A DNA stretch of 25,365 nucleotides from a virus. Position numbers and translations under genes: made by a program. Position 1 is the stretch's first letter; every line of letters begins with the position of its first letter. Location: IMG/VR virus record IMGVR_UViG_3300035698_017115, positions 1 to 25,365 of that record, one strand, 5' to 3'. Shown piece after piece: positions 2,765 through 21,036 of this stretch. The notes beneath the pieces were generated by a model. It was not told the origin of the DNA. It worked only from the letters and a program-made list of their open reading frames with translations, and ran no database searches.

Positions 2765-4093
2765 ATGACAGTAATTGAATTAAGAGAGCGGGCAGTTGCA
2801 GAAGCTGAGGCAGCACGCGCAATAAAAGATAAGGCCGACGAAGAGGCCAGGGGTATGACTCAGGAAGAGGCCGATAAATTTGACGGCCATATGAAAGAAT
2901 GCGCACGGGTCGAAGCTGAAGCGGGTAGGCAGGAAACCCTCGAAGCGACCGAAAAAAGACTCCAAGACCCGGCAAAAAGGCAAGTGACACCTGAAACAGC
3001 AACGGGCGCAAGAATTGAAACGCCTGCACCATCAATATTTAGAACTGGTCAGCTTCGGGCATTCAAAGGAAAAACAGCAGATGCCGATGCTTACAAGGCG
3101 GGCAAGTGGCTGATGGGGTCTATTGTGGGCGATGCCGCATCGAGGCAATGGTGCAGAGATCATGGCATTGAGATTCGTCTCCAGTCAGAGGGTGTCAATA
3201 CCGCCGGCGGTTTTGTAGTTCCTGATGTTATGGAACGAGCAATTATTGACCTGCGTGAAACTTACGGCATGTTCCGAGCAAACGCAAGAGTTCTGCCAAT
3301 GTCAAGCGACCACAGCTTAGTACCGAGACGTACAGGCGGGGTCACTGCTTACTTTGTAGGTGAAGCAACCGCCATAACAGATTCGGATAAAAGCTGGAAC
3401 CAGGTTGAGTTGACCGCAAAGAAGCTCGGTGCATTGACCAGAATGTCAACTGATTTGAACGAAGATGCGATTATCAATATCGCTGACGACTTGGCGCAGG
3501 AAATGGCATGGGCATTTGCAAAGAAAGAAGATGAGTGTGGTCTCGACGGTGACGGTACAGCCACCTACGGCGGTATGGTAGGCATCAGGACGAAGTTTGT
3601 CGATGGTCTGCATACAGCAGGTTACGATGAGGGTACATCTGCCTGTACCGCATGGTCGGATATTACGATTGCTGATGAAATCGTTACGGTTATGGGTTTA
3701 CTGCCGTCATACGCATTGGCAAGAGCAAAGTGGTATATCCATCCGGCAGGAAAAGCATCTTGTTTCGATGCGCTTGCATTGGCCGGCGGCGGTAATACGA
3801 CCAGAGAAATTGCATCAGGTGCAGAACCATCATTCGCTGGTTTCCCTGTTGTTGTTTCATCTGCTATGCCATCGGCACCAACAGACCAGACAGTTGCAAT
3901 ACTGTTCGGTGACTTGGGGATGTCCTCAACATTCGGCGACCGCAGGGGCATCACAATCAAGGTAAGTGCAGACAGGTATCTGGAATATGACCAGATAGGT
4001 ATTCAGGCAACCGAGAGATTCTGCATTGTCAACCATGACATCGGTGACACAAGTGTTGCTGGCGCTGTTGTTGCCTTAGTTGGTAATACTTAA
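2765..4093 (+). CDS. Major capsid protein (HK97 fold)
   Basis: This 442-residue protein is the HK97 gp5-type coat protein. Residues 1-100 form a charged coiled coil (RERAVAEAEAARAIKDKADE and onward), the delta/scaffold domain that the neighbouring protease would remove. The mature part follows: EGVNTAGGFVVPDVMERAII is the typical N-arm and start of the HK97 fold, then FRANARVLPMSS, WAFAKKEDECGLDGDGT, the P-domain segment ALARAKWYIHPAGKA, and a C-terminal A-domain with FGDLGMSSTFGDRRGITIKV. AAGGAG lies about 9 bases before the ATG, and the 63-base gap after the protease gives this highly expressed gene its own strong ribosome site. Confidence 0.95.
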   Translation: MTVIELRERAVAEAEAARAIKDKADEEARGMTQEEADKFDGHMKECARVEAEAGRQETLEATEKRLQDPAKRQVTPETATGARIETPAPSIFRTGQLRAFKGKTADADAYKAGKWLMGSIVGDAASRQWCRDHGIEIRLQSEGVNTAGGFVVPDVMERAIIDLRETYGMFRANARVLPMSSDHSLVPRRTGGVTAYFVGEATAITDSDKSWNQVELTAKKLGALTRMSTDLNEDAIINIADDLAQEMAWAFAKKEDECGLDGDGTATYGGMVGIRTKFVDGLHTAGYDEGTSACTAWSDITIADEIVTVMGLLPSYALARAKWYIHPAGKASCFDALALAGGGNTTREIASGAEPSFAGFPVVVSSAMPSAPTDQTVAILFGDLGMSSTFGDRRGITIKVSADRYLEYDQIGIQATERFCIVNHDIGDTSVAGAVVALVGNT

Positions 4094-18604: not shown

Positions 18605-18676
18605 CATTTTTTTAAAGAAGGGCGGTTAGCGGTGATTTTCTCTGCGAATCTGGCTGGGGAGTTTAGGAAAACGGCA

Positions 18677-19039
18677 ATGAAATTTAACGTTGATTATGAC
18701 GAAAAGGCCGGTCTTACATCTATTAAAGCACAAAAAGCCTCCGCTGGTAGCACAAAAACTGTCTGTGAATATCTTCTTAACCCCGTTCAGACAAGGCAGT
18801 TGAGTAAAGACCTGCTGGATGTTGTCAGGAAACTTGATGAGGGCAAGCCGAGCGATTTTGCGGACGAGCCGGCCAGGGTGCGGAACACCCTGCGAAGATT
18901 GAATATCAGGACGAAGGATGACCTAAAAATGGTCTATTTGAAAAGGGTGCAGGCCGTTCGAAATTGCGGCAGGAAAACGATCGACCGGATCATGCAGCTT
19001 AAAAAAGAACATGAAGAAAAACAGGCAAGGATGAGTTGA
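18677..19039 (+). CDS. Protein with RNA polymerase alpha-CTD-like helix-hairpin-helix domain
   Basis: A 120-residue protein starting MKFNVDYDEKAGLTS with AGGA about 8 bases upstream; a GTG at 18632 would add 15 residues. The last 50 residues before the tail (ARVRNTLRRLNIRTKDDLKM then KRVQAVRNCGRKTIDRIMQL) follow the pattern of the alpha-subunit C-terminal domain of bacterial RNA polymerase: VRxxNxLxxxxIxTxxDL, VRNxGRK, xxxIxxL. In alpha this fold contacts UP elements and activators. The N-terminal half has no such match. It could be an HhH DNA-binding protein or a mimic that contacts host activators or DNA. It lies between a regulator-like gene and the integrase. Domain match is visual only. 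Confidence 0.6.
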   Translation: MKFNVDYDEKAGLTSIKAQKASAGSTKTVCEYLLNPVQTRQLSKDLLDVVRKLDEGKPSDFADEPARVRNTLRRLNIRTKDDLKMVYLKRVQAVRNCGRKTIDRIMQLKKEHEEKQARMS

Positions 19040-19151: not shown

Positions 19152-20102
19152 ATGGAACAGTCGGAAACAAGTCTATTTGAATTATTCGAGAAGTACCTTT
19201 TAAGGGCTGATCTGGCCGAGTCTTCGGTCGAGTTTTACAGCAGGGCGGTTAAGTGGTTTGTAGTCTTATTCGGCGATGTCCCGGCAGGGCGGCTGAGCTA
19301 CGAACACGCAGAGGATTTTAAAAGCTGGCTGGGCAAGGGCAGGGCGAAAACCTCGGCTAATTCGTATTTACGGGGTATCAAGCCTTTTTTTTCATGGATG
19401 CACAGGCGAAGGTACATTGAAACCAATCCGTTCGACCAGGTAAGGCTTTTTCGCACCGGCGATAAGAAGATCGAGGTTTACGAGGTCGACGAGGTCCAGC
19501 GGATGTTTGATGTCGCGGACCTTCGCTGGCAGGTAATTATCTCACTGGCACTGAACTCGATGCGTCGGGCCGAGATATTGAACCTGGTGATCAGTGATAT
19601 TGACTTTGAAAAGAACATGATACTGGTCAGTGAGAAAAAGGACACCAAGCACACATGGCGGTGGCGGATCAAGAACCGGAACCAGTTTTACATCGGATTG
19701 CCGGAGATTGTGACGAAGCTTTTGATCAGGCTCAGGGACGAATTGCCGATAGGCCAGCCCTATATTTGTTTGAAACATAATTATTACAGGCGAAATATGC
19801 GGCTGAAATCCGAGAGCAGACTGACCCACGAGAAGCGAAACAATCCATGGGGCAACTTCGATCGGGACTTTAAATCTTTGCTGCGGCGTGCGATTGTCAG
19901 ACACAGAAGGTTTCACGATCTAAGGGCGACTTTCGCCACTGAAAGGTACAACAGCGGCTATAATCTGAAAAAGCTGCAGTATTTGTTAAGGCATTCGTCG
20001 ATACAGACGACGGCCAGATATATCAAAAACATCGATGAACAGAAATTAGTTGCCGAGAGTGCAAAAACCTTTGAAAAACATTATGTATCAAACGTCCCAT
20101 AA
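19152..20102 (+). CDS. int: Tyrosine recombinase / phage integrase
   Basis: A 316-residue site-specific recombinase with an AAGGAGG ribosome site. Residues 5-95 form the SAM-like core-binding domain (SSVEFYSRAVKWF, NSYLRGIKPFFSWM). The catalytic domain has the full set: Arg138 in SMRRAEILNL, a Lys in the central strand, HDLR (His255, Arg258), LLRHSS (His281) and the nucleophile Tyr290 in ARYIKN. It has no N-terminal arm-binding domain of lambda type, so it is a short, XerC/D-like form. Noncoding DNA with tRNA-like sequences follows directly, the usual neighbourhood of attP. It shows the phage is temperate, or was. Confidence 0.93.
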   Translation: MEQSETSLFELFEKYLLRADLAESSVEFYSRAVKWFVVLFGDVPAGRLSYEHAEDFKSWLGKGRAKTSANSYLRGIKPFFSWMHRRRYIETNPFDQVRLFRTGDKKIEVYEVDEVQRMFDVADLRWQVIISLALNSMRRAEILNLVISDIDFEKNMILVSEKKDTKHTWRWRIKNRNQFYIGLPEIVTKLLIRLRDELPIGQPYICLKHNYYRRNMRLKSESRLTHEKRNNPWGNFDRDFKSLLRRAIVRHRRFHDLRATFATERYNSGYNLKKLQYLLRHSSIQTTARYIKNIDEQKLVAESAKTFEKHYVSNVP

Positions 20103-20199
20103 TATATGTTGTATAGTATAGTTATGGGGTTGGAATTTATGATTATCTCACTTATTATGTGGCGGCTGTTGCAGGCAAATTTTCATTTCTAAAAAACCA

Positions 20200-20220
20200 G
20201 CAGACAAAATCACCGTCTGC
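20200..20220 (+). terminator. Hairpin downstream of integrase
   Basis: GCAGAC (20200-20205) pairs perfectly with GTCTGC (20215-20220), loop AAAATCACC. It lies 98 bases after the integrase stop. No T tract follows, so termination is weak or absent; it may be an RNA-processing or structural stem. Confidence 0.3.
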
Positions 20221-20252
20221 AGGTTCATCAAGAATCATTACCCTCCTCCGAG

Positions 20253-20359
20253 GCTCGGCGGTCGATGTTTGGCCGCCGAGCTATAAATAAAAGGGCCGTA
20301 AATTAAAAAGGGGTTCGGTAAGCGGCAGGACGCCGGAAAAAACCGAACCCCGCCGGCCC
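20253..20359 (+). ncRNA. Structured RNA region with two strong stem-loops
   Basis: First stem: GCTCGGCGG (20253-20261) with CCGCCGAGC (20273-20281), 9 bp perfect, loop of 11. Second, nested: GGGCCG (20293-20298) with CGGCCC (20354-20359), enclosing GGGGTTCGGT (20310-20319) with ACCGAACCCC (20342-20351), 10 bp perfect, which encloses CGGC-AGGAC-GCCG. Perfect nested stems of this kind indicate a folded RNA. I cannot assign it to a known family. It lies directly before tRNA-like element 1. An ORF on the minus strand here is only a shadow. Confidence 0.5.
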
Positions 20360-20386
20360 CTGACCAGGAGGAAACAAAAAAAAACA

Positions 20387-20473
20387 GGAGCCGAGGCCCA
20401 GGGCAGGTTTGGGCACCACGCGGCAGGGACGCTGCGAGGAAGGACGGGAGTTCGAATCTCTCCGGCTCTCCCA
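20387..20473 (+). tRNA. tRNA-like element 1 (tRNA or tmRNA 3' end; possible attP core)
   Basis: The 3' half is excellent: GGGAG (20446-20450), T-loop TTCGAAT, CTCTC, then acceptor CGGCTCT (20463-20469), discriminator C and an encoded CCA (20471-20473). GGAGCCG at 20387-20393 pairs with the acceptor strand (6 pairs plus one G-U). GCCC/GGGC could be a D stem. The middle does not give a normal anticodon arm: the best stem is CGCGGC/GCTGCG with a 6-base loop. The GGAC before the T stem resembles tmRNA 3' ends. It may be a degenerate tRNA, a tmRNA-derived sequence, or the host tRNA 3' end carried as the att core next to int. Confidence 0.5.
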
Positions 20474-20478
20474 TAAAT

Positions 20479-20616
20479 CCCGAGTATGTTCAATAAGTCT
20501 AACGCGAGCCATGGCGACCCTTAACTTAAAAAAACACTTATCATCAAATGAAATACGATTCTGGCGAGATGAATAAAGTAAGTTGTTGATAGGGCGGTAA
20601 AACGCCGTTACTCGGG
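20479..20616 (+). other. Spacer with long-range stem and internal hairpin
   Basis: CCCGAGTA (20479-20486) is complementary to TACTCGGG (20609-20616), closing a domain of 138 bases between tRNA-like elements 1 and 2. Inside, GGCG (20593-20596) pairs with CGCC (20603-20606) around GTAAAA. The middle is AT-rich with no ORF of note. Together with the flanking stems it suggests one longer structured transcript and not inert spacer. Confidence 0.35.
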
Positions 20617-20637
20617 TCCCTTTTTAAAAGTTAATAT

Positions 20638-20712
20638 AGGGCAGTAGCTCAGTTGGTTGAGCGTTGGCCTGAAAATGGCCTGAGGACGCAGGTTCGAATC
20701 CTGCCTGCCTCC
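20638..20712 (+). tRNA. tRNA-like element 2, abnormal anticodon arm
   Basis: Acceptor AGGGCAG (20638-20644) pairs with CTGCCTC (20705-20711) with five Watson-Crick pairs, one G-T and an A-C end mismatch. D stem GCTC/GAGC with loop AGTTGGTT and T arm GCAGG-TTCGAAT-CCTGC are perfect. The anticodon arm is odd: GGCC (20666-20669) pairs with GGCC (20677-20680) around the 7-base loop TGAAAAT, which lacks U33. An alternative reading with loop CTGAAAA gives a Phe-like GAA anticodon but no stem. No CCA is encoded. Anticodon and amino acid are therefore not assigned. Confidence 0.6.
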
Positions 20713-20717
20713 TTGAT

Positions 20718-20829
20718 GTCCATGTGCCGAATAGCAGGACTACTCCAAAGAATGCGGGCCTGTAACTTTGGAGAATGAGCCAGCCAGTTTCATAGGTATG
20801 ACGGAATCCGTTGTCTGGCAACCGTGACG
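20718..20829 (+). ncRNA. Structured spacer RNA upstream of a terminator
   Basis: CTCCAAAG (20743-20750) pairs perfectly with CTTTGGAG (20766-20773), with a 15-base loop. A smaller stem GTCC/GGAC (20718-20721 with 20737-20740) and ACGGAATCCGT (around 20801-20811) are also present. It ends in the terminator at 20830. The segment could be the body of a small RNA or a 3' extension of tRNA-like element 2. I cannot name a family. Confidence 0.35.
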
Positions 20830-20850
20830 GCTCGGAGAGACGAGCTTTTT
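20830..20850 (+). terminator. Rho-independent terminator
   Basis: GCTCG (20830-20834) pairs with CGAGC (20841-20845), loop GAGAGA, followed by TTTTT. It ends the transcript carrying tRNA-like element 2 unless read through, so element 3 may need its own promoter. The flank TTTTTAAAAGTTAATA just after it is nearly the same as the flank before element 2 (20620-20635). Confidence 0.7.
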
Positions 20851-20864
20851 AAAAGTTAATAATA

Positions 20865-20999
20865 TGGGCAGTGGCGGAATAGGTAGACGCAACAGTAATC
20901 CAGTGCGAGTGAAATAACCGAAAGGTACACCCTAAGAGTAAAGTAGCACTGTGAGCGAAGTAAAGCAAGCTCGTGCAGGTTCAAATCCTGCCTGCCCTC
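20865..20999 (+). tRNA. tRNA-like element 3, about 135 nt, with long insertion
   Basis: The acceptor strands TGGGCAG (20865-20871) and CTGCCCT (20992-20998) give six pairs with a T-T end mismatch. The D region TGGCGGAATAGGTAGACGC is typical of tRNA-Leu, and the T arm GCAGG-TTCAAAT-CCTGC is perfect. Between D and T arms are 84 bases instead of about 30-45. ACAGT (20892-20896) pairs with ACTGT (20948-20952), closing a 51-base loop that holds ACC-GAAA-GGT; a competing stem is CAGTGC/GCACTG. GAGC/GCTC (20953-20972) may be the variable arm. Either a tRNA-Leu-type gene with an insertion in the anticodon loop or a tRNA-mimicking RNA. Confidence 0.55.
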
Positions 21000-21036
21000 T
21001 TAAAATTTAATAACATTTTTTTCTCGGAGGTAAAAA

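Follow-up and report, generated by a model that had tools for sequence, protein, structure and literature searches.

What kind of RNA is encoded directly 3' of the tyrosine integrase gene in a viral DNA of 25,365 nucleotides (IMG/VR record IMGVR_UViG_3300035698_017115), the whole of which is referred to here as the window? A first-pass annotation, made from the letters alone, described a cluster of three tRNA-like elements with abnormal anticodon arms and offered as explanations a new structured RNA class, a decoy against tRNA-cutting defences or a decaying tRNA array. All three elements were located at the claimed sites (Table 1) and none of them has a normal anticodon arm: in element 1 the anticodon-like stem is long with a loop of 6 nt, in element 2 the loop lacks U33, and element 3 has no canonical arm. 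CCA is seen in element 1 only, in agreement with its reported lack in the other two. The tRNA predictors did not resolve the cluster into three ordinary tRNAs, the single ARAGORN call in the window being element 2, as 'Phe AAA'. The GOLLD, ROOL and tmRNA models of Rfam gave nothing above gathering score in the window, and an identity of the elements with GOLLD or ROOL was rejected on the lack of any Rfam match to either.

Table 1. Positions of the cluster features, counted from the first nucleotide of the window.
Feature	Position	Strand	Basis or remark
Tyrosine integrase gene	19152..20102	+	directly 5' of cluster
Perfect hairpin, 9 bp	20253..20281	+	5' of element 1
Perfect hairpin, 10 bp	20310..20351	+	5' of element 1
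Element 1, tRNA-like	20387..20473	+	inspection, shuffles
Element 1 acceptor, 7 bp	20387-20393 with 20463-20469
Element 1 D stem	20396-20399/20411-20414
Element 1 T arm	20446-20462
Element 1 CCA	20471-20473
5' flank of element 2, CTTTTTAAAAGTTAATA	20620..20636	+	repeat comparison
Element 2, tRNA-like	20638..20712	+	ARAGORN, Rfam tRNA
Perfect hairpin, 8 bp	20743..20773	+	between elements 2 and 3
Terminator-like hairpin, 5 bp with T5	20830-20850		weak, not called by scan
5' flank of element 3	20845..20861	+	identical to CTTTTTAAAAGTTAATA of element 2
Element 3, tRNA-Leu-like shell, anticodon arm replaced	20865..20999	+	Rfam tRNA, class filter
Element 3 acceptor 5' strand, TGGGCAG	20865..20871	+
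Element 3 U8, G9 and D arm, TGGCGGAATAGGTAGACGC	20872..20890	+	Leu type: A14, A15, GG
Element 3 payload replacing anticodon and variable arms	20891..20974	+	last base U48
Payload alternative stem, ACAGT/ACTGT	20892-20896 with 20948-20952
Payload alternative stem, CAGTGC/GCACTG	20901-20906 with 20946-20951
Payload hairpin, ACC-GAAA-GGT	20917-20926
Element 3 variable-arm hairpin, GAGC...GCTC	20953..20972	+	3' strand stops exactly 2 nt 5' of T stem
Element 3 T arm, GCAGG TTCAAAT CCTGC	20975..20991	+
Element 3 acceptor 3' strand, CTGCCCT	20992..20998	+	then no CCA

Perfect hairpins lie near the elements as had been claimed. Of the terminator described with them, a hairpin followed by a T tract is indeed present, but it is weak, and the promoter and terminator scan of the window stayed at chance level. 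The 17-nt 5' flank common to elements 2 and 3, which in element 3 overlaps this T tract, together with the 89% identity of their 27-nt 3' ends, indicates that the two arose by duplication, as had been proposed. Folded as single sequences the elements have unexceptional energies (z -1.1 to -1.6), and the case made below was therefore built on comparative evidence. The integrase protein, used as a query, brought in no relatives, and the two relatives found through a downstream protein (L002, L003) gave no Rfam or ARAGORN matches. The product of positions 18632-19039, 5' of the integrase gene, weakly resembles the C-terminal domain of the RNA polymerase alpha subunit (E 2e-4, short of the cutoff).

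Elements 1 and 2 have D arms that are not of the Leu type and are aberrant only in their anticodon arms. For element 1, given its T arm, a 7-pair acceptor strand and a correctly spaced D stem of 4 bp occurred together in only 10 of 2000 shuffles. The Rfam tRNA model did not detect it, even with laxer filters, and the tmRNA covariance model gave a partial match of 17 bits, to this element only, against a gathering score of 47. Element 1 is named here a more distant tRNA-like element. It adjoins the integrase gene, and with its tRNA-like 3' end and CCA it could also serve as the core of attP, although 84,980 species genomes contained no exact copy of a 31-nt piece of it. Element 2 combines a class I D arm with an anticodon stem of 4 bp and the loop TGAAAAT, and scored 49.9 bits with the Rfam tRNA model in the whole-window scan (gathering score 29). 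Its acceptor and T arm are nearly identical to those of element 3, and it probably represents another such shell, of a non-Leu type. Two wider patterns modelled on the window shells found no further relatives. Aberrant as the other two elements also are, firm membership of the class described below is limited to element 3.

Element 3 reached 32.2 bits with the Rfam tRNA model under laxer filters (gathering score 29), in an alignment that places 51 nt where the anticodon loop should be. Six of its seven acceptor pairs form, and the next base is C, where tRNA-Leu has the discriminator A73. The T arm is of a type with a 5-bp stem and has the loop UUCAAAU. Between the D and T arms lies a stretch, termed here the payload, that contains a small hairpin, two alternative stems and the variable-arm hairpin (Table 1), and no single excision restores an anticodon arm. 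The first 25 nt match exactly in two other phage contigs only (L004, L005), and in both the sequence runs on into a tRNA-Leu-like molecule in which ~100 nt replace the anticodon and variable arms.

Viral contigs were then searched with two gapped patterns, in which 60-90 or 91-121 nt separate a D arm from a T loop, and species genomes with a stricter gapped pattern, the latter giving 69 loci, mostly in Firmicutes. Matches were filtered for acceptor pairing, T-stem pairing and the lack of an ARAGORN call, a filter that element 3 passes. At least 222 elements in at least 219 loci remained, among them members in SPP1, phi3T, an SPO1-type phage, Listeria PSA, L. plantarum phages and ~70 prophage loci. 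The suggestion of a new structured RNA class is supported, on a scale far larger than the window. The members share a shell made up of a 7-bp acceptor, a Leu-type D arm, U48 and a T arm, with a structured insert, mostly of 60-120 nt, in place of the anticodon and variable region. Type one, mostly from Firmicutes phages, has a 6-bp T stem and the T loop UGCAAAU, and type two a 5-bp T stem and the T loop UUCGAAU. Element 3, which is of type two, has the Leu shell, U48, an insert of at least 60 nt and a helix 2 nt before the T stem. It would seem likely, on these comparisons, that it belongs to a class of non-coding RNAs that is widespread in phages and has tRNA-Leu as its scaffold. No Rfam family covers the class in scans of the window and the member loci, and no description was found in the literature; its novelty is provisional, because preprints and subscription papers lay outside the literature search.

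Covariation of the acceptor is almost perfect. Among members whose T stem has 6 bp, 127 non-redundant cores were compared; pairs 2-7 are formed in 116-127 of them (shuffle means 52-70), the inner pairs being 97-100% paired with all four Watson-Crick types represented, against ~50% in shuffles. At the eighth position only ~54% are still paired, and the acceptor is therefore exactly 7 bp long. The acceptor pattern is much alike in the 63 members whose T stem has 5 bp. The alignment of homologues that had been recommended as a check finds the acceptor of the element 3 class to covary. D-stem pair 11:24, both sides of which were free in the search, is C-G in 195 of the 222 elements, T-A in 21 and mixed in 6, and U48, which was likewise not imposed, is kept in 125 of the 127 cores. 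A14 and A15 are also kept, yet partly imposed by the search, and the conservation of the D and T loops, imposed in part by the search patterns, was excluded as evidence. Compared in this way the sequences demonstrate a covarying shell with the acceptor, D and T arms and tertiary core of an ordinary tRNA. T is enriched at position -1, the base that RNase P prefers there, and A stands at the discriminator in 72 of the 127 cores of the 6-bp type and in 44 of the 63 of the 5-bp type. An encoded CCA follows the acceptor in 9 of the 222 elements among the matches listed.

An ordinary anticodon arm (5-bp stem, 7-nt loop, U33) is found in 6 of 137 members with a 6-bp T stem (7.4 when shuffled) and in 9 of 63 with a 5-bp T stem (4.2 when shuffled), as against 86 of 90 ordinary tRNA-Leu sequences. 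The earlier idea of a decoy that resists anticodon nucleases through an altered anticodon loop does not fit the class, because there is no anticodon arm to cut.

The payload is itself structured. Across 201 payloads the fold is on average better than that of dinucleotide-shuffled copies (mean z -0.89), and a helix whose 3' strand stops exactly 2 nt short of the T stem scores 5.39 against 3.64 +/- 0.09, with weaker signals at neighbouring offsets; this demonstrates, for the set as aligned, a fixed junction geometry. Three related loci (L258, L261 and L283) share a structure of two hairpins and a loop-loop kissing helix. The structure as a whole is paired in 99% of cells, 11 of the changes in it are two-sided, and its covariation is 0.549 against 0.283 (0 of 500 shuffles). 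The kissing helix has three pair types at two positions, and the signal collapses when the alignment is slid by one column. A model of this trio gave ~15 strong matches in 247 genomes, all of the same family. Payload structure is in this way demonstrated, at the level of covariation, in at least one subfamily.

Under the constant shell the payloads are, by the same comparisons, demonstrably unrelated: 205 of them fall into 177 clusters, 156 of which are singletons. One contig (L124) carries six copies with a shell identity of 0.90 and a payload identity of 0.37, where random sequences give 0.49, and two others (L033, L049) carry three copies each. Unrelated L. plantarum phages have near-identical ends and different inserts, and Listeria PSA, FHC193-PLM9 and the myovirus P100 have the acceptor ATACTCG/CGAGTAT in common with differing payloads. 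Across named loci with unrelated payloads, acceptors match at 3.90 of 7 positions within a host genus and at 2.87 between genera (0 of 1000 permutations), a link between shell and host that is likewise demonstrated for these loci. This leaves two possibilities: the shell is read by a factor of the host, or phages that share a host swap shells while their payloads change.

These features lead us to a tentative proposal, for which the balance of probability is still somewhat unfavourable: in many phage families a constant, host-matched tRNA-Leu shell may deliver and stabilise rapidly swapped RNA payloads, sometimes with several of them arrayed on a single phage contig, that act in trans in conflict. 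As the constant shell, the acceptor, Leu-type D arm, U48 and T arm would together adopt the tRNA elbow fold, with the hypervariable structured domain replacing the anticodon arm and usually enlarging or rebuilding the variable arm. Host RNase P would cut the 5' end, as the exact 7-bp acceptor and T at -1 suggest, and the shell, protected as a tRNA, would give a stable RNA that cannot decode and that displays its payload in trans. More speculatively, the payload might diversify under conflict between phage and host or between phages, and the shell might be tuned to the tRNA-handling machinery of the host group. Against the reading as a whole stand the small number of close relatives of element 3 (L004 and L005), the unremarkable single-sequence folding energies and the frequent position of the class at the start of late operons, which also fits a role in cis.

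In Firmicutes relatives the element often lies between late transcription regulator and terminase genes. At 52 phage and prophage loci the 5' gene matches late transcription regulator families in ~20 (phrog_36 9, phrog_248 7 and phrog_2198 4, memberships that may overlap), and the 3' genes include HNH endonucleases and terminases; in phiFL2A the cluster lies between the ArpU and terminase genes. An alternative that we consider unlikely, if worth weighing, is that the tRNA-like fold acts in cis inside a late mRNA leader with the insert as neutral filler, where it might, with equal reserve, be an RNase P cut site, a translation enhancer or a protector of the 5' end. The gene order speaks for this, phiFL2A, PSA and FHC193-PLM9 fit it directly, the yjdF riboswitch sets a precedent and translation rises when tRNAs are grafted into leaders (PMC9142559). 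The element of SPP1, however, lies between head genes 9 and 11, that of the SPO1-type phage SBSphiJ3 lies inside a tRNA array, as do those on several contigs, six copies on one contig are ill-suited to a single leader, and selection acts on helices and a kissing loop of the payload.

Other RNAs accompany the class at some loci. A ROOL RNA on contig L050 (667-1248, 260.7 bits) ends ~14 nt 5' of a member at about 1262-1385, and ROOL and a member share one tRNA island on L268. On L198 the Listeria sRNA rliG (3553-3738) overlaps the start of a member (about 3697-3850), with an mcrA RNA at 3962-4013 on its 3' side; rliG is an expressed sRNA (PMC6786865), which hints at transcription at this member locus. 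The PSA leader (L356) resembles this arrangement. A skipping-rope RNA (RF02924) lies just 5' of a member at L309 5654-5732 (minus strand). Directly 5' of the element a hairpin, GTTCGGGGNTAGCCCGGAC, is conserved between SPP1 (L318 ~2475-2493) and SBSphiJ3 (L320 ~2382-2400), and it also occurs in the member-bearing loci L115 (5189) and L224 (2058). Just 3' of the SPP1 element (L318 ~2614-2662) there is a second, very short tRNA-like element with the acceptor ACGGAC/GTCCGT and a T arm and without an anticodon arm. On L111 (minus) and L314 (plus) there are Leu-like shells in which the D loop is altered or interrupted and additional inserts occur.

It seems quite unlikely that the RNAs are decoys or sponges binding host proteins that engage tRNA through its elbow or acceptor end, such as defence effectors or tRNA-modifying or CCA-acting toxins. 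In favour of this, the elbow is kept while the decoding parts are gone, the shells follow host genus, and nearly all members of the 6-bp T-stem type have G55, which removes the pseudouridine site (this base was partly forced by the genome pattern and unforced in the viral scans). A decoy, on the other hand, has no need of a hypervariable structured payload, and without an anticodon the anticodon nucleases are excluded as its target.

A Y RNA-like mimic of tRNA that partners a Ro-type protein is improbable. Bacterial Y RNAs are given as tRNA mimics in work that PMC12282133 cites, and in CKA15, a P100-like Listeria phage, abundant ncRNAs without an assignment lie close to the tRNA genes (PMC12282133) and a Ro-like gene is present. 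Alf5, a phage of the Felix O1 type with E. coli K-12 as host, has two unannotated tRNA-like elements with aberrant arms (L355 1234-1310 and 1390-1470) beside a gene for a DUF2828/DUF7788 plus VWA protein, a Ro-like layout. Against this, scans of the window and the member loci matched no Rfam Y RNA family, and no Ro-like protein is among the neighbour families listed. To our knowledge, Y RNAs have no free 7-bp tRNA acceptor. In P100 itself (L359, minus strand, ~36400-36545, which is 126.4-126.55 kb of the phage) the ATACTCG/CGAGTAT shell lies near tRNA genes and its D loop is degenerate.

Decaying or intron-interrupted tRNA genes can be dismissed as hardly credible for the element 3 class, in spite of the tRNA-Leu derivation, the duplication of elements 2 and 3 and the odd anticodons in a few neighbours that ARAGORN calls, since acceptors of exactly 7 bp covary across unrelated phages with the core contacts kept, and since one excision yields a Leu anticodon arm in 12 of 137 and 6 of 63 members, near the 7.9 and 4.3 of shuffles, and in none of the window elements, so that a spliced tRNA-Leu was rejected.

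The preferred reading, a non-decoding tRNA-Leu scaffold with an exchangeable payload, would place an apparently unannotated class in such classic phages as SPP1, phi3T, the SPO1 type and Listeria PSA, overlooked because tRNA finders require an anticodon arm. It raises the testable question of what phages show on a tRNA body that does not decode, and may bear on why ROOL and other structured phage RNAs are located in tRNA islands and late-operon leaders.

Among known systems the class is closest in its shell to the class II tRNA-Leu, with which it has in common the 7-bp acceptor, the D arm with A14, A15 and GG, U48, the T arm and a helix at the position of the variable arm. It differs in having no anticodon arm, a long variable payload and usually no encoded CCA, and often a 6-bp T stem with the T loop UGCAAAU. 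In tmRNA (ssrA) a long structured insert likewise replaces the anticodon arm of a tRNA shell, although that shell is Ala-like rather than Leu-like and the inserts of the class are mostly 60-120 nt. Bacterial Y RNAs such as YrlA resemble it as phage-borne tRNA mimicry, but the class has no Rfam match, free tRNA-like ends and a hypervariable domain. The yjdF riboswitch also places a tRNA-like fold in mRNA leaders (PMC9142559); it is a homologue of tRNA-Lys with a ligand pocket and without a hypervariable payload. ROOL and GOLLD, which form RNA cages (PMC12286853), are likewise large structured phage RNAs near tRNA islands, and ROOL lies close to a member on L050 and shares a tRNA island with one on L268. 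In sequence and size both differ from the class. In laboratory tRNA-scaffold vectors an insert replaces the anticodon stem and gives a stable RNA. If the scaffold reading is true, the class, with its constant shell and hypervariable payload, would be the counterpart of these engineered vectors, one that appears natural and diversified.
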